NCBI GenBank assembly: GCA_905339155.1
Contig: CAJPFJ010000001.1
Coordinates: forward strand, 1 to 64,000
From: Methanosarcinales archaeon
GTDB lineage: Archaea > Halobacteriota > Methanosarcinia > Methanosarcinales > Methanoperedenaceae
DNA length: 64,000 nt
Direction: 5' to 3'
A program made the position numbers and the translations under genes. How positions within the stretch are numbered: position 1 is the stretch's first letter; the number at the start of each line of letters is the position of its first letter. Positions 2,277 through 61,624 of this stretch are shown in pieces. Under the pieces are notes generated by a model. The model was given only the letters and a program-made list of their open reading frames with translations, was not told the DNA's origin and made no database searches.

Positions 2277-4040
2277 TCACTTTCCCCAGAAAGGATTACC
2301 TCTGCGTTTGATCTCCATGAATGCCATGAGAGTCTCTTTGTCTTCTATTTTCATAGCTTCGAACAATTCCTGTTCTGCGATCTTTGCATGCTTTTCGGGA
2401 ATATCAATATAAAGAGTATCCCCTTCTTTTATCTGGCGGCCAACGACCGGTCCATCGATAGCCATAGCCACTTCTTTTCCAGCTTTAGCCTCGCTTATAT
2501 TCTCGTTGTTCTCTTGAATTCCTTTTATTATTCCAACAATAGTACCGTCTTCTTTCATTACTTCAAGATTTGTTTTAACGATACCCCCCCTGACACGCAC
2601 ACCAACAACCGCTGGCTTGCTCTGCCTGAATGTGCAATCTGGCATGATAATGAATCTTCCCGGTTTTATTATTGTCTCGTAACGCTTTTTCTCAAGGAGT
2701 TGCTTTTGTTCCACTACCCATTTCTTATAATCTTCTATGATGCGATAGATGACATTATTGGTAAATAATTTTATATCTGAGTCTGATAGTTCTTCCTTTG
2801 CATCAGGCAAAACATCTACTTCAAATCCAAGAATTACAGCAAAAAGCGGGTCTTTGATAGTTTTTACTTCAGCCACATCACGTTTTGAAATGTCTCCTAT
2901 ATCTGCCTTTCGAATAGGAATATTTTCCTTTTTCAACTCATTCACAAGGGCTTCAAGAGAGCCTATAGTATCTGATTTGATTAATACCCCATTTGATTCG
3001 GTTTCAATCCGTACTGAATCTATTTCGGATTTAATGGCGGCTGCCACCTCCTCAATATTACCGGAAGCTACGCGGATCTGGGATCCTGCAAGCGCCCCTT
3101 CAAGAGACGGAGCTGCGATCTTGATACCTGAAGCTGCCACGACTTTCTTTACCTGTTTGAATTTTTCTTCCGAGCGCATTTCAGAAAGAGGTCTTGGCTT
3201 TAACAGGGCCCGTATTTTTGTTGATATCGGAGCGCCTCTGCTTCCCACAACGATCGTGTCGCCTACGTTTAATTCCCCATCATATAATATCACATCAAGC
3301 GTTGTTCCAAGACCTGTCTCTTCTTTTACTTCAAGAACTGTCCCGATGCCTGGCCCAACGGCCCTGTACTCAAGGTCTTTTTCAAGGAACTTCTGGGCAA
3401 GTCCCATTAATATCATAAGAAGATCGGGTATGCCCTCTCCTGTTCTGGCGCTTACGGGCATAATCCCGATATTTCGCTGGAAATCCCGTACCCTGTCATA
3501 CCTGTCAGAGCTGAAACCCATTTCATAGAGTTTGCCTATTATCACGTATATTTTTTCATCAAGCCCTACTTGTGCAAACTCGGTCTGCCCGGGAAAAGAT
3601 AATATGAACGGCTTTCCTGGTTGCGGATTCCATCCCGGCACTTTATCGATCTTATTTCCCGCGACAATAAATGGCGTTTTAAATCTCTTCAGGATTTCTA
3701 CAGCTTCAAGCGTCTGGGGCTGGAATCCTTCATTTACATCCACAACAAGAACTGCAAGATCAGCAAGCGCCCCGCCGCGCGCCCTTAACGTAGTAAAAGC
3801 CCTGTGGCCGGGAGTATCGATAAAAAGAAGCCCGGGGACTTTTGTATCTCCCTTGAATATCGGGCCGCATACACGTTTTATAATTTCAAGCGGCACTTCT
3901 GTCGCTCCGATATGCTGGGTTATAAGCCCTGCTTCACGCTCTGCTATTGTGGTTCCTCTTATCTTATCAAGAAGAGACGTCTTGCCGTGGTCCACATGTC
4001 CCATAACACATACGATGGGGGTGCGCAGATTTTCTCCCAT
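2277..4040 (-). CDS. infB: Translation initiation factor aIF5B (IF-2)
   Basis: 587 aa GTPase that helps subunit joining and initiator-tRNA positioning. The G1 motif GHVDHGKTSLLD is at about residues 14-25, G3 DTPGHRAF at about 75-82 and G4 NKID at about 129-132, followed by domains II-IV and the archaeal C-terminal helix region ending near KRRGNPFWGK. The length matches archaeal aIF5B and there is no intein. It follows ndk in the conserved archaeal order L7Ae-S28e-L24e-ndk-infB. Confidence 0.97.
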   Translation of the reverse strand: MGENLRTPIVCVMGHVDHGKTSLLDKIRGTTIAEREAGLITQHIGATEVPLEIIKRVCGPIFKGDTKVPGLLFIDTPGHRAFTTLRARGGALADLAVLVVDVNEGFQPQTLEAVEILKRFKTPFIVAGNKIDKVPGWNPQPGKPFILSFPGQTEFAQVGLDEKIYVIIGKLYEMGFSSDRYDRVRDFQRNIGIMPVSARTGEGIPDLLMILMGLAQKFLEKDLEYRAVGPGIGTVLEVKEETGLGTTLDVILYDGELNVGDTIVVGSRGAPISTKIRALLKPRPLSEMRSEEKFKQVKKVVAASGIKIAAPSLEGALAGSQIRVASGNIEEVAAAIKSEIDSVRIETESNGVLIKSDTIGSLEALVNELKKENIPIRKADIGDISKRDVAEVKTIKDPLFAVILGFEVDVLPDAKEELSDSDIKLFTNNVIYRIIEDYKKWVVEQKQLLEKKRYETIIKPGRFIIMPDCTFRQSKPAVVGVRVRGGIVKTNLEVMKEDGTIVGIIKGIQENNENISEAKAGKEVAMAIDGPVVGRQIKEGDTLYIDIPEKHAKIAEQELFEAMKIEDKETLMAFMEIKRRGNPFWGK

Positions 4041-4094
4041 ATTCTATAGATTATGTTAAAAGTATATAATAAGGAGCGTTTTAAAAAGAAAAAC

Positions 4095-4547
4095 TTAATT
4101 TTCGTATATACAGGCTTCGTCAGCCCTTGTATATCCTGCTATTTCGGATTCCTTAAAATGGATGGTTATTTCCCTGGTGGCAGATTCAGGAGAGTCACTT
4201 GCATGGACTATATTGCGTCCTGTATCAAGCGCCAGATCTGCGCGTATGCTTCCTGTAGCAGCATTCACGGGATTGGTGGCACCGTTAACTGCACGCATCA
4301 CTGATATAGCATTTTTTCCTTCAACTACCATCGAAACCGATGGCCCTGATGTTATAAAACTTATCAGTGAGTTAAAAAATGGTTTTTGTGCATGCTCAGC
4401 ATAGTGTTTCTTTGCAGAATCAAGTGACATCGTATTCATACGAATGGCCACTATTTTGAGTCCACGCCGCTCGATCCTGCTTAAAACTTCACCGATAAGG
4501 CCACGCTGTACTCCATCGGGTTTGACCATCACATATGTACGCTCCAA
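4095..4547 (-). CDS. ndk: Nucleoside diphosphate kinase
   Basis: 150 aa, the full family length. It transfers the gamma phosphate between NTPs and NDPs through a phosphohistidine. The N-terminus [20 protein letters not shown] and the active-site region [18 protein letters not shown], with the catalytic His, are intact. It sits 9 bp after rpl24e and 54 bp before infB in the translation operon. Confidence 0.97.
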
Positions 4548-6404: not shown

Positions 6405-7442
6405 ATGATCTTTATGAAAGACTATATCAATAAACTCATCCGGAAACAACACCTCACGACAGAAGAGGCACAGCTTGCGATATCTAAAATATTTACCGAT
6501 GCAACTGACGTCCAGATAGCGGCATTTTTAACGGCCATGAAAATGAAAGGCGAAACACCTGCCGAGATCGCGGGGCTTGCCCTGGGTATGAAAAAAGCGG
6601 CCAATATCATAAATCCTAAAATCAACGGGACACTTATCGATACTTGCGGCACAGGCGGCGATTCGATGGGCACTATTAATGTGAGCACAGGCGCAGCGCT
6701 TGTGGTTGCAGGAGCTGGCGTTCCAGTTGCGAAGCACGGGAATTACTCCATCACCTCAAGATCGGGAAGCGCTGATGTGCTGAAAGAACTTGGCGTAAAG
6801 ATAGATGCGCCTCCCGGACAGGTGGAAAAGACAATTGAAACGGTTGGGATCGGATTCATGCTTGCGCCGGTATTTCATCCATCTATGAAGCGCGTGGCGC
6901 AGATAAGGCGCGACCTGGGTTTCCGGACTGTTTTCAATATCCTGGGGCCGCTGACAAACCCCGCAAACGCAAAAGCGCAGGTCATTGGTGTATTTGACAG
7001 CTCCTTATGCGAGCCAATGGTAAATGTGCTCAATATACTGGGTACCGGGAGGGCAATGGTCGTCCACGGCAGCGGTATGGATGAGATATCAACAACTGGT
7101 GAAACACAAATAGTGGAATTAAACGACGGAAAGCTTACAAAATATATTACAACACCTGAAAAACTTGGTGTAAAACGCGCCTTGATCGGTGATATCGCCG
7201 GAGGCACACCTGAAGAAAATGCAAGGGATATTGTGGAAGTGTTCAAAGGCAAAAAAGGAGCAAAGCGGGATATTATTGCTGTGAATGCGGGCGCAGCGCT
7301 TTTTGTGAGTGGGAAAGCAGAAAACCTTGCCGCCGGAATAAATCTGGCAAACAAGGTAATAGATAGCGGCGCAGCGCTAAGCAAGCTGAAAGAGCTCGTG
7401 AATGCGGCAGGCGAACCTGATAAACTTGCACGGTTCTTATAA
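6405..7442 (+). CDS. trpD: Anthranilate phosphoribosyltransferase
   Basis: 345 aa. It joins anthranilate to PRPP in tryptophan synthesis. The PRPP motif DTCGTGGDSMGTINVST (about residues 63-79) and NILGPLTNPA are intact. The ATG at 6405 directly follows the last TGTACA box and has no Shine-Dalgarno, and the alternative ATG at 6414 is equally bare, so the message may be leaderless. It is the first gene of trpDFEG. Confidence 0.95.
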   Translation: MIFMKDYINKLIRKQHLTTEEAQLAISKIFTDATDVQIAAFLTAMKMKGETPAEIAGLALGMKKAANIINPKINGTLIDTCGTGGDSMGTINVSTGAALVVAGAGVPVAKHGNYSITSRSGSADVLKELGVKIDAPPGQVEKTIETVGIGFMLAPVFHPSMKRVAQIRRDLGFRTVFNILGPLTNPANAKAQVIGVFDSSLCEPMVNVLNILGTGRAMVVHGSGMDEISTTGETQIVELNDGKLTKYITTPEKLGVKRALIGDIAGGTPEENARDIVEVFKGKKGAKRDIIAVNAGAALFVSGKAENLAAGINLANKVIDSGAALSKLKELVNAAGEPDKLARFL

Positions 7443-27814: not shown

Positions 27815-28795
27815 TTACAGATTCCTGAAGGAATATTTGCGACTGCCGCAACCTATTATTTCAGCGGCTTCCAGATGTATCGATGGATCTACTCCCCATA
27901 CGTGGTATATCGACTTGCCGTTTATTTTCATTCGTTCATTTATCAGGTCAATTGTAGCAGCATCAATAGCTACCGGATCTGTTCCTGCAAGTATTCCAAT
28001 ATCTTCCACAAAACGCTCACCTGAAAAATTGAAGCAATCACATCCCGGTGTAAGATCATAAACCCAGTTGATATAACCGATACGCCCTTTGAGCGCCTTG
28101 ATGGGGCCAAGCGCTGCTTGCCCTAATCTTTTTTGCATTTTAAGAGATGCATCCTGGGGAGGGATGATCGCCTCGTTCTGGCAAGCATCTGCGCAGGATA
28201 ACTCTCCGCAGCATTTTGAATGGTCTATCCGGGGCGGATCTATTGCTCCCCATGGGCAAACCTCTACGCAATCACCGCACTGGATGCATTTTTCAGGATC
28301 AATGGAAGGTTTCCCCACCTCATGGACTTTGATTTTTCCAGCCCTGTCAAGACAGCCCATGCCAAGATGTTTGACGGCGCCGCCAAACCCGGAGGCAGGA
28401 TGTCCTTTTCCATGAGAGATGACTATCATAGAATCAGCTTGTGCGATACCGGAGGCGACCGTAATACTGTCAAGAACATCCCCATTGATCTTTATCTCTC
28501 TTCCATCTCCACCCCTTAATCCATCCGCCACGATAAAGGGAGCATTCATACTTGCATGGGTAAAGCCGTTCATAGCAGCCCCCTGAATGAGTTCTGCCGC
28601 ATTAAGCTTCATTCCTCTGTATAATGTCGTTGTATCAGTTACAAAGGGTATGCCGCCTTCTTTTATTACAAAGTCCACCACCGTTCTTACAACAACAGGC
28701 CTCACATGAGTTGTATTGCCATATTCACCCGGATGTATTTTTATCGCTACAAAATGCCAAAAAGTAGACAATATTTTAAATATTAGTATGTACAT
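27815..28795 (-). CDS. DUF362 ferredoxin-domain protein, 5' end replaced at the element junction
   Basis: 326 codons. The DUF362 domain begins abruptly at VAIKIHPGEYGNTTHVRP (residue 16). ISHGKGHPASGFGGA follows, and two 4Fe-4S motifs, CIQCGDCVEVCP and a second variant SCADACQ, lie at about 190-230. DUF362 proteins normally carry about 45-55 residues before the VAIK strand. Here only MYILIFKILSTFWHF precedes it, encoded in AT-rich DNA that also holds the integrase start. I read this as a host gene split by integration, and the protein may not be functional. Confidence 0.8.
   Translation of the reverse strand: MYILIFKILSTFWHFVAIKIHPGEYGNTTHVRPVVVRTVVDFVIKEGGIPFVTDTTTLYRGMKLNAAELIQGAAMNGFTHASMNAPFIVADGLRGGDGREIKINGDVLDSITVASGIAQADSMIVISHGKGHPASGFGGAVKHLGMGCLDRAGKIKVHEVGKPSIDPEKCIQCGDCVEVCPWGAIDPPRIDHSKCCGELSCADACQNEAIIPPQDASLKMQKRLGQAALGPIKALKGRIGYINWVYDLTPGCDCFNFSGERFVEDIGILAGTDPVAIDAATIDLINERMKINGKSIYHVWGVDPSIHLEAAEIIGCGSRKYSFRNL
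28740..28762. other. Predicted attachment-site junction (host/element boundary)
   Basis: Host-like coding for the DUF362 domain stops at about 28745-28750. Beyond it the sequence turns AT-rich and leads within about 60 bp to the integrase ATG. The att core should be a short direct repeat located here and again at the far end of the element, outside the window. The exact core cannot be set from one end. Confidence 0.5.
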
Positions 28796-28805
28796 ATGTA
28801 ATACT

Positions 28806-30149
28806 ATGACTGAATCAAAATTAAACCTATTTCTTAATGCATTATCTGATAAGCAACGAAGTGAGAATACAATTATTAGTGCAAAAGGTGCCTTAATAAA
28901 GACACAGGAATTTATAAAGAAGCCTTTAGAAGATGCTACTTATGAAGAATTGATGGGTTACATCAAATATGTAAGAGAGAATGGTTCACCAACAACCGAT
29001 GAACGTACCAACAAAAGAAAAGATAGAGGATTGGGTAAAAACAGCATTCATACTATAGAGTCAAAATATATCCAATTTTATTTTTGGCTCTTTAATCAAA
29101 CAGATGAGTCAAAATATAATAAATTAGTTAGACAGCTTAAGGATATAAGAGTCAATAAACCAAAAAATAGCGTCACGTCTCAGGATGTCATATCAATAGA
29201 AGAGATAAAGAGATTGTTGAATATTGCCACATTGGAAAGAGATAGGTGCATTTTAGCTTCATTTTGGGAATCTGGTATGAGATTAGGTGAATTTCTCTCA
29301 TTAGATAATAAAATGGTTAACATGGATGAAGCAAAACAGGAAGTTACTTTTTTCATACCAAATACAGATGATAAAGATGATAAAGATGATGATGCAAGGT
29401 CAAAAACAGGTGCAAGAACTGTTGTATGTGTAGATATTTACAGTTTTGTACAGGATTGGTTCAGGTGTCATCCAGATCCATCACCAAATAAAAAATTCAT
29501 GCCATTTTCAAAAAATTGTATTAGAAAAGTAATAAAAAAATGGTATATCAAAGCTGGAATCAAAAAACCATATAATGTGCATATGTTGAGACACTCAGCA
29601 ATAACATATTGGGTTGAACTTGGACTGAATCCAATCGAAATAAGTTATCGCGCGTGGGGCATACCAAATAGTAATATGTTGGCTACATATATTCATGAAT
29701 CAGAGAAAAGAAAGGCCAATGCTTATAAAAAATCAAAAGGAAAAGAAACAGATGAAAATAAATCAAATAATCTTAGAATTGATATATCCATTGCTTGTAT
29801 CAGATGCGGTCATTTAATGATTTCTGGTTCTGGTAGTGTCTGTAAGAGTTGTCAGGATGTTGAAAATATTAATAGAGAAAATGACGAACTTAAAAATACA
29901 ATGGATAAATATGCTATCCAGAACGAAATGCTACAAAACGAGATGAAATCTATGCAGAAATTCATGGCAGAATTGATTGTAGCGATGCCATCTGATGTTG
30001 TGAAAAAATTACAAAAGATAGAGATACAAACAGATATACATCCCCAGAAGCCCTATGTAATAGCTGATAAAAACGAGCAGGGACGTTTGAATCGTGAATA
30101 TATTCAAATAAGGAAAGAAGAATACAAAAAGAAGCAAGGTGTAAAATGA
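28806..30149 (+). CDS. Tyrosine recombinase (integrase) with zinc ribbon and coiled coil
   Basis: 447 aa from the ATG at 28806, with an alternative at 28788. An N-terminal SAM-like core-binding domain (1-110) is followed by the catalytic domain: Arg159 (ESGMRLGEFLSL), Lys200 (RSKTGART), His259-x-x-Arg262 (HMLRHSAITY), Trp284 in the usual His position and Tyr295 (ATYIHES). An added tail has a zinc ribbon (CIRCGHLM and CKSC, about 335-355) and a coiled coil (REN/ELKNTMDKYAIQNEMLQNEM). The gene starts next to the host junction, as in many integrative elements. Confidence 0.93.
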   Translation: MTESKLNLFLNALSDKQRSENTIISAKGALIKTQEFIKKPLEDATYEELMGYIKYVRENGSPTTDERTNKRKDRGLGKNSIHTIESKYIQFYFWLFNQTDESKYNKLVRQLKDIRVNKPKNSVTSQDVISIEEIKRLLNIATLERDRCILASFWESGMRLGEFLSLDNKMVNMDEAKQEVTFFIPNTDDKDDKDDDARSKTGARTVVCVDIYSFVQDWFRCHPDPSPNKKFMPFSKNCIRKVIKKWYIKAGIKKPYNVHMLRHSAITYWVELGLNPIEISYRAWGIPNSNMLATYIHESEKRKANAYKKSKGKETDENKSNNLRIDISIACIRCGHLMISGSGSVCKSCQDVENINRENDELKNTMDKYAIQNEMLQNEMKSMQKFMAELIVAMPSDVVKKLQKIEIQTDIHPQKPYVIADKNEQGRLNREYIQIRKEEYKKKQGVK

Positions 30150-54252: not shown

Positions 54253-55212
54253 TTACTTTTTATATTTTAATATTACAATCGCAATTGTTCCTATTACTAC
54301 AAAAATAATTTCATAATTTAAAGACCTTGATTCAATAGTGGTTGGTATGACATAAGTCACAATAGGTAGTATTGATGTTTGTTTTGGAGTAGGTACTTGT
54401 GTAGGTACTTGTAATGTACCAGAACTTCCAGCTTGAACATCAGCACGAGTGGTGCCTATTTTCGGATTAAGATAATAAACAATTTGTGTGGTTGATGCTG
54501 TTGATGATCTATATAATCCAATTCTATGGATAAAATGTTCATATAATGTAGTCTTTGTTGGATAATTATATTTTGACCATATAAGTTGTCCATTTTTAAA
54601 TATTTCTACAAATCCTGTATTACCAGTTGACCATTTAATATGATACATCCAATCTTCCCATATACCTGGCTGAAAGCTATATAAAGGATTAATTTGCCAT
54701 GTACAGTATATTGTTGACTGTCCAGCACAATTATTTCCTATTTCAATTTTACCACTTGATGATGTTCCTAATTTAAATCCAGATCCGCCACAAGTGGGAC
54801 ATGGTATTTGGTATCCTTCAGCCATACCAATAGCATAAGTTCCTACATCTGGTTTCCAAGAAGCATCTAACATTTGTGACCATCCATACCAAACATCACT
54901 TGCTACATTTGGTATTAATGGTTCTATACTTTGGAGTTGAGTATGTTGATTTCCATTACAATTATAAGCTGAAGTTGGTCTAATAGTAAACCTCGCGGCA
55001 TATCCTGTTCTACCACCTGGAAGAGAAGATGCTGGAACAACTACAAGACTATCTGGTTGAGGAACACAACTATAATCTTTCCATTTTCCAAAAGCACCAT
55101 TTACACTAACCCAACGATCTGTTGATGAAAAACTACCATCAAATAATAGTGTTGCGCTTCCAGTCTGCGCCATTAACAGGATGAGTATTCCAACAATAAT
55201 CAGTTTGAGCAT
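54253..55212 (-). CDS. Exported heparin-lyase/polysaccharide-lyase-like protein
   Basis: 319 aa. A signal peptide (about 1-20, ending GSATLLF) is followed by a single jelly-roll domain of the heparin lyase I-like type (about 22-250). It shows FDGSFSSTDRW, GRTGYAARFTI, SDVWYGWSQMLDAS, PGIWEDWMYHIKWS and TGFVEIFKNGQLIW, the usual strand motifs. A short Pro/Thr linker and a C-terminal helix (IIFVVIGTIAIVIL) before KYKK anchor it. It may bind or cleave a surface polysaccharide. Catalytic residues cannot be confirmed. Confidence 0.75.
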   Translation of the reverse strand: MLKLIIVGILILLMAQTGSATLLFDGSFSSTDRWVSVNGAFGKWKDYSCVPQPDSLVVVPASSLPGGRTGYAARFTIRPTSAYNCNGNQHTQLQSIEPLIPNVASDVWYGWSQMLDASWKPDVGTYAIGMAEGYQIPCPTCGGSGFKLGTSSSGKIEIGNNCAGQSTIYCTWQINPLYSFQPGIWEDWMYHIKWSTGNTGFVEIFKNGQLIWSKYNYPTKTTLYEHFIHRIGLYRSSTASTTQIVYYLNPKIGTTRADVQAGSSGTLQVPTQVPTPKQTSILPIVTYVIPTTIESRSLNYEIIFVVIGTIAIVILKYKK

Positions 55213-55738: not shown

Positions 55739-55791
55739 TGCGTTACGCAATTAACTGAGTATATAAACTATATAAACTATATAAAGGAAAT
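55739..55791. other. Palindrome and tandem TATAAACTA repeats
   Basis: TGCGTTACGCA is a perfect dyad with a single central base. A short distance on, TATAAACTA occurs twice in tandem and a third time partly. These AT-rich repeats flank the heptamer array on its left side and may be part of the same functional site. Confidence 0.4.
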
Positions 55792-55860: not shown

Positions 55861-56136
55861 TCCAAGTCTTCCAAGTTAAAACCAACTTGGATTCAACTTG
55901 GATTCAATAACAGTAAACTCGAAAAATCCAAGTGTCCAAGTATATATAGAGTATACTCTCTTATTATATCTTTAGATATACTAACCTAATCAAGGTTTAA
56001 GTTTTAATATACTATAGAGAGTACAAGTGTGAAATACTTGGACACTTGGATTTTTAAACAAAAAACAAAAAACGGTAATAATAAAAAAAACAAATCCAAG
56101 TTGAATCCAAGTTAAAACCAACTTGGAAGACTTGGA
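55861..56136. other. Candidate replication origin or partition site: twelve mirrored TCCAAGT heptamers
   Basis: Exact TCCAAGT occurs at 55861, 55870, 55927, 55935, 56095 and 56106, and its reverse ACTTGGA at 55885, 55896, 56036, 56044, 56121 and 56130. Pair spacings run 9, 11, 8 and then 8, 11, 9. The outer four pairs are symmetric about 55998.5, and the inner two about 55988.5 because the right spacer is 20 bp longer. The core (55942-56035) is AT-rich with TATAGAGTATACTC. It lies at the 3' end of the replication ATPase gene. Iterons plus an AT-rich core is the usual origin plan. Confidence 0.75.
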
Positions 56137-56144
56137 TTTAAAGA

Positions 56145-57917
56145 TTAAATTTGAAGGTGCGGGTCATTTTCAGGATCTAAATCTTCTTCTTCAACAAATC
56201 CATTTTCTGGTTGTTCAGGTTCATCATCTTCTTCATGTGGCATTTGATCTTCTGTATGTTCTGGTGGTACTTCGTCTTCATAATAAGGAATAACAACATC
56301 TGATGCTGATATACCATCTTCATGTATTTTCTCTATGAGTTCTTTATATTTTTTCAATCTATAATACCGCTGATATTCTGTACCTTCCAGATTAATTTTA
56401 TCAACACCCATTTTTTCAAATTCTTTTTCTAATTCTTCAATTTTTGCTTTGATTCCAGTTGGTTTATATTGTTCGATAGTTTTACTAAATATCTCTAAAT
56501 TATCTGGATCTCTTAAATCATATACATGTTGACCATTTTGTTTTGTTTCTTCTTGTTTTAATCCAATGTATCCCATACCAATTCCGACTTTTATTGATGT
56601 TAATTTAGGAAATCTATCTGCGTAATTGTTTAAAATATATTCAGTAACTGATTTTGGAGAAGTCTTACCATTTCCAAATAGAGGATTATCTACTATCGTT
56701 GCACTGATACCCTCAACAATTATTGCGGGTAATGTATCATCTGATTCTTTTCTCTTTTTATCCATAAATTCCAATGCATGAACATACATTGTTTCTTCAA
56801 TCTCAGGACTAAGATTAAACAGTTTTATGATACTCATAAGTGGATCATACATATCACCAGCTCTGCCATCTAAATTAGTTTCGATTTCTTTACAATCTTT
56901 TTCAAGCTTATCTTTAAGATAATAAAGCATAAACCGTATTCTTTTTGCCCTATCTTCTGAATAAGCTAATTTTTTGATTTTTGGAACACCCTTATTCATA
57001 AATGTAATCCAAGTTCTGCTATTGATAGGATTATCAGTTTTTCCATCGTCCTGTTGATTATAACATTTAAATCCATATGTTGATTTATCATCATAACTTT
57101 GATGATCGGCTGCGCTTAATTTACCTTGTGGAATTCCTTTCTTGTGACCACTGGTAAAGATGTTATATATCTCAGTTTTTTCATTTCTTTGATAAAATGC
57201 GTCTTCGGCCTGATCTAATATAATAACCCCCTGGTCTTCTAGAAGTTTGAGGACAAATGCTGGTGTAGGTCTGGAACAAATAACTGCACGATATGCAAGC
57301 ATACTGTGAGTCTGACAGGCAGTAGTTTTCCCTTTCTCATTACCATTTGCCCGATAGTTTCTATATCCAGTAGCATTAAATTTATCTTGAAAATAACTTT
57401 GTATGTCTAACAATGTATCGAGTAAATAATCTCGTACATCTGAATATACAACATGGTCTTTCCAGAAAGTTAAAACTTCATTGAATGCTTCATGTGTAGT
57501 GCATTCAATCATTTCTTCTTTTGTGGGTTCTGTTTTCCATGGACTATGTGTATAGTTTCCTTCTATGTCGAATTCATTTCGACAGGATTCACATCTAAAG
57601 ATCATACCCTTTGCTACTGCTATATTATTGCAACAAGGACATGTAATTGATGTTTTGCCTTTCCGAGCCTTATCTTCCTGTATAGCTGGAACATATTTCA
57701 TATATGCTTGTTGGATATTGTATATCAACAATTTTTCAAATTCTGGTGTTATTTCCTGTGGATTTTCAGCATTCATTTCAATGAATATTTTCAGATCCTT
57801 AAGCATTTTATCTACATTCGGTGTCTTATAAACCATTACAGGTTTATTATTATAAACCATTGTTGCACCAAGATTTGATGATGATTGCAACTCTAAAGTC
57901 ATTCCTCTTATTGTCAT
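56145..57917 (-). CDS. P-loop ATPase, probable replication initiator/helicase
   Basis: 590 aa. The N-terminal domain (1-90, with KPVMVYKTPNVDKMLKDLKI) is shared with the small 92-aa protein near 58.9 kb. A zinc ribbon follows (Cys93, Cys96, Cys109, Cys112). The ATPase core has Walker A NGNEKGKTT (191-199), Walker B VIILDQAED (231-239) and a later STYGFKCYNQQ...RTWITFM segment like the sensor region of plasmid/virus helicases. An acidic, Pro-rich tail ends it (from about 555). Coupled by TAATG to the nuclease gene. The Walker A is slightly degenerate at its first Gly. Confidence 0.7.
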   Translation of the reverse strand: MTIRGMTLELQSSSNLGATMVYNNKPVMVYKTPNVDKMLKDLKIFIEMNAENPQEITPEFEKLLIYNIQQAYMKYVPAIQEDKARKGKTSITCPCCNNIAVAKGMIFRCESCRNEFDIEGNYTHSPWKTEPTKEEMIECTTHEAFNEVLTFWKDHVVYSDVRDYLLDTLLDIQSYFQDKFNATGYRNYRANGNEKGKTTACQTHSMLAYRAVICSRPTPAFVLKLLEDQGVIILDQAEDAFYQRNEKTEIYNIFTSGHKKGIPQGKLSAADHQSYDDKSTYGFKCYNQQDDGKTDNPINSRTWITFMNKGVPKIKKLAYSEDRAKRIRFMLYYLKDKLEKDCKEIETNLDGRAGDMYDPLMSIIKLFNLSPEIEETMYVHALEFMDKKRKESDDTLPAIIVEGISATIVDNPLFGNGKTSPKSVTEYILNNYADRFPKLTSIKVGIGMGYIGLKQEETKQNGQHVYDLRDPDNLEIFSKTIEQYKPTGIKAKIEELEKEFEKMGVDKINLEGTEYQRYYRLKKYKELIEKIHEDGISASDVVIPYYEDEVPPEHTEDQMPHEEDDEPEQPENGFVEEEDLDPENDPHLQI

Positions 57918-58627
57918 TATTTTCCCTCACATCTTGGACATTTTGGAGTATGATACCAAAGTCCACAAAATTCACATTCTACATATCCTTCTTTTATGAT
58001 TATTTCTTTTGGAACAAATAAATCACTTAAATATTTTTCTTCACCCCACCCATTACCATTACTGTAAAGTTTCTTAACTAATATTATAAGTGAACTATCT
58101 CCAATATCGAAATATAATTGACCACATGCTTCTTCATTATCTCTTGATTTTCCTTCAAATAAAGTAGTTATTACTCTTTTTGCCCATTTTTGTTTAAATT
58201 TTATGATACCATCAGAATGTTTCAATAATAATGAATCATCATCATATTTTTCATGATAATCAAAAATCCATATTGTTTTATATCCACGACTTAAGTATTG
58301 GTTAACCCTACTTAAAATTTCACTTGTAGCAATTGGACTGTGTTGAAATTCATAACAATATTTGTTTATAGTATCAATAGCATCTGTTATATGATACCCA
58401 ATTCTTTTCTCAACTTTTAAATTATATCCTAATGCTATATTTTTCCATTTGATATGCCATTCATTATCATATTCTGTGTTATACAAGCATTCAACTTTAT
58501 GCGACCAATGATCTACATTAATGGCACCACATCTAGCTATTAATTCACTATTACAATGTGGACAGGTTGCAATTATATTCTTTGATGCTCTGATTAATTT
58601 TCCATTTTCATTTTTAGCGTATTGCAT
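57917..58627 (-). CDS. CoiA-like nuclease with zinc ribbons
   Basis: 236 aa. The N-terminal zinc finger (CPHCNSELIARCG) and VDHWSHK match CoiA-family proteins. The PD-(D/E)xK-type core has EWHIKWK, TDAIDT and YEFQHSPI with the catalytic Asp, Glu and Gln. A C-terminal zinc ribbon (CEFCGLWYHTPKCPRC) ends it. CoiA acts in DNA processing during competence. Here, overlapping the replication ATPase by its stop codon, it may nick or resect element DNA. Confidence 0.78.
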   Translation of the reverse strand: MQYAKNENGKLIRASKNIIATCPHCNSELIARCGAINVDHWSHKVECLYNTEYDNEWHIKWKNIALGYNLKVEKRIGYHITDAIDTINKYCYEFQHSPIATSEILSRVNQYLSRGYKTIWIFDYHEKYDDDSLLLKHSDGIIKFKQKWAKRVITTLFEGKSRDNEEACGQLYFDIGDSSLIILVKKLYSNGNGWGEEKYLSDLFVPKEIIIKEGYVECEFCGLWYHTPKCPRCEGK

Positions 58628-58689: not shown

Positions 58690-58807
58690 TTTAAGTACCC
58701 ACAAGCCAATTAGAAAGTAGTAGTTGTGTAGTTTGTTTGGCTTGCGGATTATTAGCTTTTTAGGATTCTGCTGATAATCTGTCTTCCAACAGCTTTTTAT
58801 TTTTTTA
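58690..58807 (+). ncRNA. Predicted plus-strand small transcript with inverted repeat
   Basis: AAAAAGTTTAAGTACCC (58684-58700) is the element's promoter type in plus orientation. CAAGCCAA (58702-58709) and TTGGCTTG (58737-58744) form a perfect 8-bp dyad around the expected start near 58718. GCTG/CAGC followed by TTTTTATTTTTTT (58794 onward) could end a transcript of about 85 nt. The flanking genes run the other way. Confidence 0.35.
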
Positions 58808-59083
58808 TATCCATTTAGTTACAGTCTTGTTTCCTTTGTTCGTTACCCATGCCATATAGACACGATTTATATTATATTTCATTAGTTCCTTATCAGGTTC
58901 TGTTTCACCTTTATTGAATTTAGCGAATATCTTAAGATCCTTTAACATTCTATCTGAAGATGGAGTTTTATAAATCATCACAGGGCTATTTTCATAATAA
59001 AATACAACACCGCGATCTGTTTGTTTGAGTTCCAGATTCATAGTTTTAACTTCTTCTTTAACTTCTTCTTTAATTTCTTCCAT
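58805..59083 (-). CDS. Stand-alone copy of the replication-ATPase N-terminal domain
   Basis: 92 aa from the ATG at 59083. An alternative GTG at 59092 overlaps the AbrB stop. After a Glu/Lys-rich helix (EEIKEEVKEEVKTMN) it reads LELKQTDRG, then SPVMIYKTPSSDRMLKDLKI and NINRVYMAWV, which align with residues 8-75 of the 590-aa ATPase (KPVMVYKTPNVDKMLKDLKI, NIQQAYMKYV). It could act as a regulator or competitor of the initiator through the shared domain. Confidence 0.65.
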   Translation of the reverse strand: MEEIKEEVKEEVKTMNLELKQTDRGVVFYYENSPVMIYKTPSSDRMLKDLKIFAKFNKGETEPDKELMKYNINRVYMAWVTNKGNKTVTKWI

Positions 59084-59088
59084 TGAAA

Positions 59089-59268
59089 TCACACCTGTTG
59101 TATTGGCATTTCTGGAACTGTATGTACAGGTGTCAAAATAATCTTACCGTCCTGTACACTGAAATCTAATTGATTTCCAGCTTTTAGATTAAGGTCTTTT
59201 GTCAATTCCATCGGAATGTATATTCCAAGTACTCCATGTTGGTTGATTTTTTGTATGTTCCTTTTCAT
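59089..59268 (-). CDS. SpoVT/AbrB-type DNA-binding protein
   Basis: 59 aa starting MKRNIQKINQHGVLGIYIPM, followed by DLNLKAGNQLDFSVQDGKII, the swapped-hairpin AbrB fold (G-x-x-x-IPxE-x-x...L-x-x-G). AGGTAAT precedes the ATG. It probably regulates replication genes from the promoter upstream and is the first gene before the 92-aa domain protein. Confidence 0.75.
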   Translation of the reverse strand: MKRNIQKINQHGVLGIYIPMELTKDLNLKAGNQLDFSVQDGKIILTPVHTVPEMPIQQV

Positions 59269-59666: not shown

Positions 59667-60080
59667 TTATGTGGAATTTGTGGTTAATCCAGTTGACTTA
59701 AATAAGTTATATTCTTCTTCTATCTGAGGAAGGAACTTAAGTTGTTCTTGAGTAAGTGGAATTTTGATATGTAGATCTCTTGGTTCTCCTGTAAGCTCGG
59801 ATAATCTATTCCTTATGAACAATTGCTTAGTTACACGTTCACCCATCGGCTTCAAATATCTGTATCTATATGACTTTTTTCCTATATTTTTACGCCATAT
59901 ATATTTTTGTCCAACAAGCCTTTTTAAAGCTCGGCTAACATTGTTTTGAGTTAAACCTGTATAGAATGCGATGTCCTCACTGGTGAAATATGTTGACGGT
60001 GGCCGTATGAATATTTTCAATATTAAAAATTTGGTCTGATTATGTCTATTAGATCGTTTAACATCTTCCATGCTACGCAT
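59667..60080 (-). CDS. Winged-helix regulator
   Basis: About 137 aa from the ATG at 60080, which overlaps the methyltransferase stop as TAATG. The frame extends 12 nt further. A MarR/ArsR-like winged helix spans about 15-75 (FTSEDIAFYTGLTQNNVSRA, LVGQKYIWRKNIGKKSYRY). A C-terminal helical part follows (LTQEQLKFLPQIEEEYNLF). It may control the methyltransferase or replication module. Confidence 0.75.
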   Translation of the reverse strand: MRSMEDVKRSNRHNQTKFLILKIFIRPPSTYFTSEDIAFYTGLTQNNVSRALKRLVGQKYIWRKNIGKKSYRYRYLKPMGERVTKQLFIRNRLSELTGEPRDLHIKIPLTQEQLKFLPQIEEEYNLFKSTGLTTNST

Positions 60081-61624
60081 TAAACAACACATCCTATAGC
60101 TGATAATGGTCTTATTTTTGGAGAATTAATACTAATAATAGGTAATTCAGGTACTTTACAATCACAATTACACCTTAACCTCGCTATTTCACAATATTCA
60201 GGATTTAAATCAATACCAACATAATTATGACAAAGTGTATTGGCCGCTTTTAATGTTGAACCAGAACCACAAAATGGATCGAGAATTAAAGAATGCGGTG
60301 GTGTTATTAGTTTAATTAGATATTCCATTAGTTTTTGTGATTTTACTGTTGGATGATTGTTTTGTTGTGGTTTAATTCCTTTCTCAGTAAATGAACCTTG
60401 TCCAGTTTCAGTTCTTATATCAACTTTTTGTACTGGTAAAGATTCACACACTTCATTCTTTTCTGATGGTGACGCTTTAGCACAATAAAAAAAACGAGCA
60501 ACTGAACCATCTGATTTTGGATTATAACCTACAATATAAGATGAATCTTTAGTTGATTCATAATAACCATTATAATTATTATATTTATGTGATTTTAATT
60601 CTCCACTATTATGATTTCCATATTTCATAAATTCATCCATAACAACATCTGAACCATCATGAATTAAGTTAGCAGGAAAACGACCTATCCTATTAGGATT
60701 ATCTATTTTACCACTAAAATTACCATGAAATAGATTATCATTTCCTTGACCATTAATTTTGATATTATCATTTCCTACCCTACACTCATTAATATTTATT
60801 CCACCAGTTCCCCACCTCAATACATTCTCGGCAACTGTTGTTTCTGATAATGGTTTTCTTACAAGCCACCAACACTCCACAGCGGGTTTTAATGCAGTTC
60901 CCCATCCAGACCACTGCTTGGCTTGTGGTGTGGAAGGTGCTGTTATATCAAGTTCTTTTGTATCTTTTCTATTGTTATAAATTTCACTTCCAAATATTGA
61001 TGATGCACCAAAAATATTTTTTCCAATAATTTCTCGTTCTGCTTCTTCTATATTACTAAATGGTAATTTATAAGTTTTACAAATTAAATTAAATTGTTCT
61101 GGTGATGGTAGATTATAGCCTAATTCCCAATTTGATACACAACCAGTTAATCCACCTGTTATACTCGGAAATAATTTTGATATTTCATTTGATGATATAT
61201 TATTTTTATGTCGAAATTCTCTTAACCAATTACCAAACCATCCTACATTATTACCTCCTCTTTTATCAATCTGTTTACTAATATCCAAACTTTTAGGAAA
61301 ACCTGATCCGAACAGATGATGCACCACATCCCTTATCTCAAATCCCGCATCCTCTAACGCGCATCCTGTCCAATGACTTGTTCGAGGTAATGACCACACC
61401 AAACCATGAGCACCAGGTTTCATTACTCTTAAAGATTCTTGCATAATAGATGATAACCACTGTATCCATGCGATACGACCTCCTTTTGAATTATCCCATT
61501 CTTTACCCATAAATGAAATACCAGCGGGTGGATCTGTTATCATCGAATCGAATGTATTATCTGAAAATTTTTTTAATTCCTGAAGCGAATCGCCACATAT
61601 TATTTGATTTTCATTGCTTCGCAT
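60080..61624 (-). CDS. DNA methyltransferase with embedded XRE-type HTH
   Basis: 514 aa amino-methyltransferase of permuted order. Catalytic motif IV is SMITDPPAG near residue 35 (DPPA in place of DPPY). The SAM motif LDPFCGSGSTLKAANTL lies near 455, followed by YVGIDLNPEYCEIA. Between them, after HHLFGSGFPKSLDISKQIDK, lies an insert with an XRE-like HTH (LREFRHKNNISSNEISKLFP, VSNWELGYNLPSPEQFNLIC). No restriction enzyme is adjacent, so it probably protects or marks element DNA. Confidence 0.85.
   Translation of the reverse strand: MRSNENQIICGDSLQELKKFSDNTFDSMITDPPAGISFMGKEWDNSKGGRIAWIQWLSSIMQESLRVMKPGAHGLVWSLPRTSHWTGCALEDAGFEIRDVVHHLFGSGFPKSLDISKQIDKRGGNNVGWFGNWLREFRHKNNISSNEISKLFPSITGGLTGCVSNWELGYNLPSPEQFNLICKTYKLPFSNIEEAEREIIGKNIFGASSIFGSEIYNNRKDTKELDITAPSTPQAKQWSGWGTALKPAVECWWLVRKPLSETTVAENVLRWGTGGININECRVGNDNIKINGQGNDNLFHGNFSGKIDNPNRIGRFPANLIHDGSDVVMDEFMKYGNHNSGELKSHKYNNYNGYYESTKDSSYIVGYNPKSDGSVARFFYCAKASPSEKNEVCESLPVQKVDIRTETGQGSFTEKGIKPQQNNHPTVKSQKLMEYLIKLITPPHSLILDPFCGSGSTLKAANTLCHNYVGIDLNPEYCEIARLRCNCDCKVPELPIISINSPKIRPLSAIGCVV

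Follow-up and report, generated by a model that had tools for sequence, protein, structure and literature searches.

A mirror-image heptamer array beside a putative initiator gene as the probable replication origin of an integrated archaeal element

An integrated element in the archaeal chromosome

The window analyzed here, i.e., positions 1 to 64,000 of contig C1 of a Methanosarcinales archaeon (CAJPFJ010000001.1), comprises archaeal chromosome together with an integrated tyrosine-recombinase element of ~39.7 kb. Its borders are marked by a 15-bp direct repeat, TATTTTTATCGCTAC, with both copies on the same contig (28736-28750 and 68463-68477). The left copy lies within a DUF362/ferredoxin gene, for which most best matches in related genomes start at query residue 14 or 15, as would be expected if the first residues of the gene derive from the element. 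At 33%, the G+C content of the element lies below that of the 2-kb windows to its left (36 to 45%). Genes of the element encode lectin-type proteins, PEGA-domain proteins, DNA methylases, a CoiA-like nuclease, and a 590-aa protein; a 141-aa winged-helix protein is encoded near the repeat array described below (59667-60092). Landmarks outside the array are as follows.

28736..28750, + strand: left att core, TATTTTTATCGCTAC, within the DUF362/ferredoxin gene; right copy at contig C1 68463-68477
28776..30149, + strand: tyrosine recombinase of the element, left end; later start chosen within the 28716 ORF
55739..55787, no strand: other repeats to the left of the array, a TGCGTTACGCA palindrome and tandem ATATAAACT units, found by eye
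56145..57917, - strand: 590-aa putative initiator; ATPase domain at ~aa 142-373, homologous to archaeal primase/ATPase replication proteins
57917..58627, - strand: CoiA-like nuclease, 236 aa, adjoining the 590-aa gene (PF06054, E 1.6e-8)
58805..59092, - strand: partial paralogue (95 aa) of the 590-aa protein, matching its N-terminus (47% over residues 3-77)

The 95-aa ORF is apparently a partial duplication of the N-terminus of the 590-aa protein.

No close relative of the element emerged from the following searches. Relatives of the integrase were found in 8 of 31 genus genomes, the element's own included; in the loci inspected from five of the seven others, the integrase was the only gene in common with the element's ORFs of at least 80 aa. 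The CoiA-like protein was confined to its own genome among the 31, as was the 590-aa protein among 60 relatives and among 237 genomes of the class. No match to the 590-aa protein was present in 50,697 phage records or in the viral contigs, and a 393-aa element protein was likewise without a match in phages or viral contigs.

Beyond the window, ~80 bp short of the right end of the element, there is an extra copy of TCCAAGTCTT. Here, AAGACTTGGATTTTAAAG (contig C1 68367-68384; L005 8367-8384) closely resembles the outer edge of the array, AAGACTTGGATTTAAAG, and may be an additional binding site in the vicinity of attP and the integrase promoter; a protein that binds the array may thus act near attR as well. 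Separately, the two ends of the element share an inverted 26-nt match (88%, with 18 nt exact; 28751-28776 versus contig C1 68443-68468), possibly integrase arm sites.

Anatomy of the heptamer array

Twelve exact copies of TCCAAGT/ACTTGGA occupy positions 55861-56136. A prior sequence-only reading had described them as six head-to-tail pairs around a 94-bp AT-rich core, and a recount placed every copy exactly where that reading had put it, with start-to-start spacings within pairs of 9, 11, and 8 bp on the left and 8, 11, and 9 bp on the right.

55861..56136, no strand: whole array; outer inverted repeat 55861-55904/56093-56136, inner inverted repeat 55922-55961/56016-56055
55861..55876, + strand: heptamer pair 1 (TCCAAGT at 55861 and 55870)
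55885..55902, - strand: heptamer pair 2 (ACTTGGA at 55885 and 55896)
55927..55941, + strand: heptamer pair 3 (TCCAAGT at 55927 and 55935)
55942..56035, no strand: AT-rich core, 94 bp, proposed unwinding region
56036..56050, - strand: heptamer pair 4 (ACTTGGA at 56036 and 56044)
56095..56112, + strand: heptamer pair 5 (TCCAAGT at 56095 and 56106)
56121..56136, - strand: heptamer pair 6 (ACTTGGA at 56121 and 56130)

The array had been placed at the end of the 590-aa gene; the two do adjoin, with the array more precisely on the 3' side of the gene and 8 bp from the stop codon. Reflection symmetry of the spacings is exact for the outer four pairs, as had been claimed, and is limited to them, since 24 bp separate pairs 2 and 3 on the left arm whereas the corresponding gap on the right is 44 bp. 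The core (23% G+C) is indeed AT-rich, albeit only mildly so for this element, in which 5.9% of all 94-bp windows are equally or more AT-rich.

Such an arrangement was judged unlikely to arise by chance, and the statistics bear this out. The 484 bp around the array contain 12 heptamers, whereas 5000 dinucleotide shuffles of this stretch had 0.069 on average and at most 2. Across the whole element (276-bp windows in 46-bp steps), TCCAAGT/ACTTGGA is the commonest 7-mer, with 10 copies in one window; the leading 7-mer of either of two host stretches reaches 4, and those of five shuffled versions of the element reach 4-5. Searched against its own genome, the array is present once, its own inverted halves aside.

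Considered as a whole, the sequence forms two nested inverted repeats, one of 44 nt (86%) and one of 40 nt (80%), and can be folded as a single long stem-loop, with a DNA fold of -64.3 kcal/mol (z -12.3) and an RNA fold of -113.7 kcal/mol (z -12.6). In the outer arms, all 28 of 28 heptamer bases match and all 6 mismatches are confined to the 8-bp spacer TAAAACCA. Exact heptamers separated by divergent spacers would be the pattern expected of protein-binding sites. The spacer itself (55877-55884 and 56113-56120) reads in the same direction on either side of the palindrome, as though the inter-heptamer tip had been flipped.

The 590-aa protein and its ATPase family

By direct searches, the 590-aa protein returned no Pfam match above the cut-off (DUF927 and Primase_Cterm included) and no NCBIfam match, and nothing convincing was obtained from PHROG or PDB; matches to zinc ribbons in the region of aa 85-119 were weak and sub-threshold. 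Against plasmids, tblastn retrieved a sole record at E 0.01, i.e., the 1077-aa Rep-like protein of pXZ1 (E 6e-4, 24% over 244 aligned positions). Profiles of the ATPase domain reached further: a two-row profile added relatives from 6 of the 392 genomes searched, and with seven rows the additional genomes numbered 14 (15 of 392 counting that of the window). When a profile was made from 13 relatives, leaving the window sequence out, the 590-aa protein was recovered at E 6.8e-22 as the sole match among 362 ORFs (120 kb of the contig), and hhalign gave a probability of 98.6% against 0.2% for the reversed protein; the 13 relatives had themselves been found by profiles containing the window sequence. 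The earlier designation of a replication-type ATPase is thus well supported by this profile and by the pXZ1 homology.

Five ATPase relatives examined in Pfam carried, respectively, AEP-TOTE; Prim-Pol with a CHC2 zinc finger; DUF3854 with a weak Toprim; DUF3631; and no match. The relative at locus L128 is without a Pfam match. No primase, polymerase, AEP, or D5 domain was found in the Pfam-scanned ORFs of the element, the 590-aa protein included. A winged helix in the C-terminus of the latter was not supported (hhalign 0.8% and 0.3%, with 0.45% for the reversed control). An AlphaFold single-sequence model of the protein had a mean pLDDT of 35 and was left unused.

Mirrored repeats at the 3' ends of other initiator genes

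Two other ATPase-family loci display a comparable layout. In L128, a single-contig genome, the stop codon of the ATPase gene marks the start of three direct ATGGAACA-type repeats (at most one mismatch, 9-bp register), which are followed, across a 121-bp core, by three inverted copies. In L101, three direct and three inverted CCTAACTT-type repeats are located within the 3' end of the gene. A strict scan for 3+3 copies around a core of 40-250 bp yielded three matches among ATPase-homologue loci, namely L101, L128, and L102 (an att site). In the 357 kb intended as background, it yielded only two, both within the 3' ends of AEP-TOTE genes that belong to other elements of the genus. The window array is missed by the strict scan because its copies come in pairs; it is flagged by 2+2 rules.

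Several earlier scoring schemes were set aside. A first exact rule (2+2, with no minimum core) separated poorly, with 3 of 15 homologue loci matching versus 5 matches across 242 kb of background sequence. Scoring by the best 8-mer proved noisy, and a mirrored score lacking a minimum core picked short hairpins in controls.

A fixed rule with a minimum core was then applied from -600 to +400 relative to the stop codon. Among ATPase-family genes with complete 3' ends, 4 of 12 matched when the window was included and 3 of 11 when it was not (p 8e-4), a count that is not blind, as minimum-core rules were set after L101 and L128 had been seen. The remaining 8 of the 11, all distant relatives, carry no array under this rule. 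The sequence-only reading had named related elements with the same ATPase but no such array as a refutation, and on this point the outcome is mixed. Other initiator-like element genes matched in 4 of 7 cases, a selection-biased set, as L082 and L090 entered through the scan itself and L134 and L135 because they resemble L082. The rule was fixed in advance solely for the D5_N genes of the genus; of these, 2 of 5 matched (p 0.0024) and 3 carried no array. Altogether, 10 of the 24 genes match and 14 fail (L141 and L144, among the 24, may not be replicon genes), compared to 1 of 600 shuffles. Controls were 218 mechanical ORFs of at least 250 aa, not all of them independent, as some come from homologous loci of related genomes; only 2 matched, both through one array around the L102 tRNA-Leu gene between integrases. 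Mirrored iterons at initiator-gene 3' ends are hence enriched over control ORFs.

Dropped before this count were L105 and L133 (fragments, with L123 and L124 occupying the same places), L125 (which runs off its contig), L131 (with offsets equal to those of L129), and L142 (with only 122 bp downstream); L121, a relative from the seven-row profile, was left out. Some genes that fail the rule have looser repeats that were noted by eye and remained uncounted, among them three ATCTGGTTT copies 76 bp past the stop codon in L129, and ATTTACAAA repeats directly past the stop codon in L154.

At L102 (~3967-4244), the mirrored 3+3 repeats flank the tRNA-Leu gene (4069-4151) between two convergent integrase genes. 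This placement is read as an attachment site, and the L102 array is probably an att region rather than an origin.

In L135, an IMG/VR contig, ten exact copies of ATCTTTG in both orientations surround an AT-rich stretch (4086-4361). This array is situated 96-371 bp past a DUF5906/D5-type gene and is very like that of the window in design.

The heptamer outside the element

A search with the pattern TCCAAGTN{1,4}TCCAAGTN{4,16}ACTTGGA returned 16 stretches in genome contigs and 6 in viral contigs, many of which may be chance matches given hand-estimated chance numbers of ~6 and ~1, respectively. None of the other stretches had 12 copies, the maximum being 7 in 300 bp. Within the genus, the pattern was present in 1 of 31 genomes, i.e., that of the window. 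Judged by these searches, the TCCAAGT heptamer is specific to the element.

Discussion

Taken with the adjoining gene, the array is probably the replication origin of the integrated ~39.7-kb archaeal element, of iteron type and located beside its initiator gene. Following excision, the 590-aa protein would bind the heptamers as iterons. Two ATPase rings, perhaps hexamers and facing in opposite directions, would be loaded by the two mirror-image half-arrays of six sites each; the rings would then melt the 94-bp core and bring in primase and polymerase of the host, so that replication proceeds both ways. Extrusion of the long palindrome as a stem-loop may aid loading as well, as proposed for pRN1. 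The heptamer would then serve as a private recognition code of the element, in which case related elements would be expected to have different iterons in a similar geometry. Set against this reading, the cumulative GC skew, suggested earlier as a check, has its extremes near the element ends and only a break in slope near 56 kb. The same holds for the ATPase relatives and D5_N genes that carry no array under the rule, for the lack of a comparable array past the rep gene of pXZ1, and for the unsupported winged helix of the 590-aa protein.

Of the other explanations, control of transcription deserves the most attention, even if we consider it unlikely. An element repressor or global regulator, such as the 141-aa winged-helix protein encoded nearby, would bind the heptamers and thereby control genes beyond the array or, via the attR copy, the integrase. 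In keeping with this, the TCCAAGTCTT copy near the right end would sit upstream of the integrase gene in the circular form, and ORF 54253-55212 has a relative of the motif, with one mismatch, on its upstream side. The next start codon, however, is ~650 bp from the array, and the mirrored arrays of other elements are found inside or just behind initiator genes, a placement that fits replication better than transcription control. For an AbrB protein, previously named as a candidate ligand, the Pfam-scanned ORFs gave no match. Partition loci also carry clustered repeats next to replication genes, and the sequence-only reading had left the choice between origin and centromere undecided. A centromere-like site bound by an element-encoded partition protein would account for such clustering, yet we regard it as improbable: the Pfam scan of the element ORFs contains no ParA, ParB, or other segregation family, and the arrays of other elements track initiator genes. 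It is the origin half of that reading that is favored by the ATPase homology and by the enrichment of mirrored iterons.

The strength of the RNA fold directly past the stop codon raises the prospect of a structural RNA or terminator, with the palindrome acting in the 3' untranslated end of the 590-aa transcript. Against this, no Rfam match was obtained at gathering scores, other elements have arrays of this kind inside coding sequence, and the confinement of the outer-palindrome mismatches to one spacer between exact heptamers fits protein sites over base pairing; we would give this explanation marginally less weight still than a centromere. Least probable of all is a chromosomal-type origin at which the host Orc1/Cdc6 would bind ORB boxes. 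The host genome does have two Cdc6_C matches, but both genes are on other contigs (C23 and C6), and the CTCCAGTGGAAAC-type boxes, presumably ORB boxes, seen by eye upstream of one of them are unlike TCCAAGT.

Reading the array as an iteron-type origin invites comparison with characterized systems. The SaPI origin is an AT-rich region flanked by iteron sets, as is the core of the present array. SaPI Rep is described as recognizing iterons directly downstream of its own gene, apparently as two hexamers, and SCCmec Cch2 as binding such repeats through its C-terminal domain (PMC7581432). The likeness thus extends to the placement of several short iterons directly downstream of an initiator helicase gene, for SaPI as for the putative Cch2 origin, according to that same source. 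Differences are that our array is archaeal and consists of twelve exact heptamers in alternating mirrored pairs, that binding here is putative, and that its ATPase is akin to the pXZ1/DUF3631 type rather than to DUF927 or Primase_Cterm/D5.

With pRN1, the array shares a long stem-loop just 3' of the replication gene. The pRN1 reports describe a stem-loop downstream of orf904 that is required (PMC4234260, PMC3869888), the sequence of which varies between relatives while its structure is conserved (PMC4234260). At ~276 bp versus ~100 bp, the present array is longer and is built from iterons. In addition, the pRN1 type has a protein with an AEP primase and an SF3 helicase, whereas neither AEP nor D5 was found in the 590-aa protein or the other scanned element ORFs, and no homology between the 590-aa protein and pRN1 ORF904 was seen. 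By the tests run, the array would work like a SaPI Rep-ori or a pRN1 stem-loop origin and is a member of neither type, because no DUF927/Primase_Cterm or AEP-SF3 protein accompanies it.

The closest annotated relative is the replication protein of pXZ1 from Sulfolobus islandicus (NC_010365), listed as a PolpTN2-related putative Rep in PMC3973330. Its ATPase domain is homologous to that of the 590-aa protein; unlike the latter, it has a weak N-terminal primase match. Past the pXZ1 rep gene there is no comparable array, no inverted repeat of at least 14 nt was found in 6500-6970, and the fold downstream of the gene is modest (z -3.25). Methanoperedens plasmids are described as having Orc1/Cdc6 origins with repeats beside the replication gene and an AT-rich stretch (PMC9674854). 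The array resembles these in both traits; it differs in that the plasmids use Orc1/Cdc6, whereas Cdc6_C is here encoded on other contigs only.

We tentatively propose a common design, as a real possibility that calls for more caution than the assignment of the array itself. In archaeal integrated elements with AEP, D5, or DUF3631-like initiators, the origin would be part of the initiator gene or adjoin it, always at the 3' end. It would consist of mirror-image sets of iterons that are free to drift in sequence but keep one geometry (~9-11-bp register, inverted halves, short core) for loading two opposed ATPase rings. To our knowledge, mapped origins are few among archaeal mobile elements, and genetics is lacking for those of uncultured archaea. 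Among the matches listed in our literature search, no title or abstract opening pointed to origins of this kind in elements of Methanoperedens or Methanosarcina, and a search for the heptamer itself gave nothing relevant among the matches listed. If the design holds, sequence alone could suffice to annotate the origins of such elements, even where iterons are hidden in coding sequence. The rule of mirrored iterons at the 3' end would thus provide testable origins for many elements and assist in constructing shuttle vectors for archaea of this order; it would also connect archaeal elements with the self-loading initiator logic of bacterial phage satellites.

Additional observations

Upstream of a host orc1/cdc6 gene, the sequence CTCCAGTGGAAACACTGGGGTG (L042, ~407-431), presumably an ORB-like box, is unlike TCCAAGT. 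Arrays based on GTCCAAGT were encountered in two further settings, namely the 3' end of a prim-pol/AAA_25 gene from Peptococcaceae and two viral contigs of IMG/VR (L045:355-421; L060:58-298; L065:3830-4029), and TCCAAGT-like iterons may thus recur in unrelated replicons.
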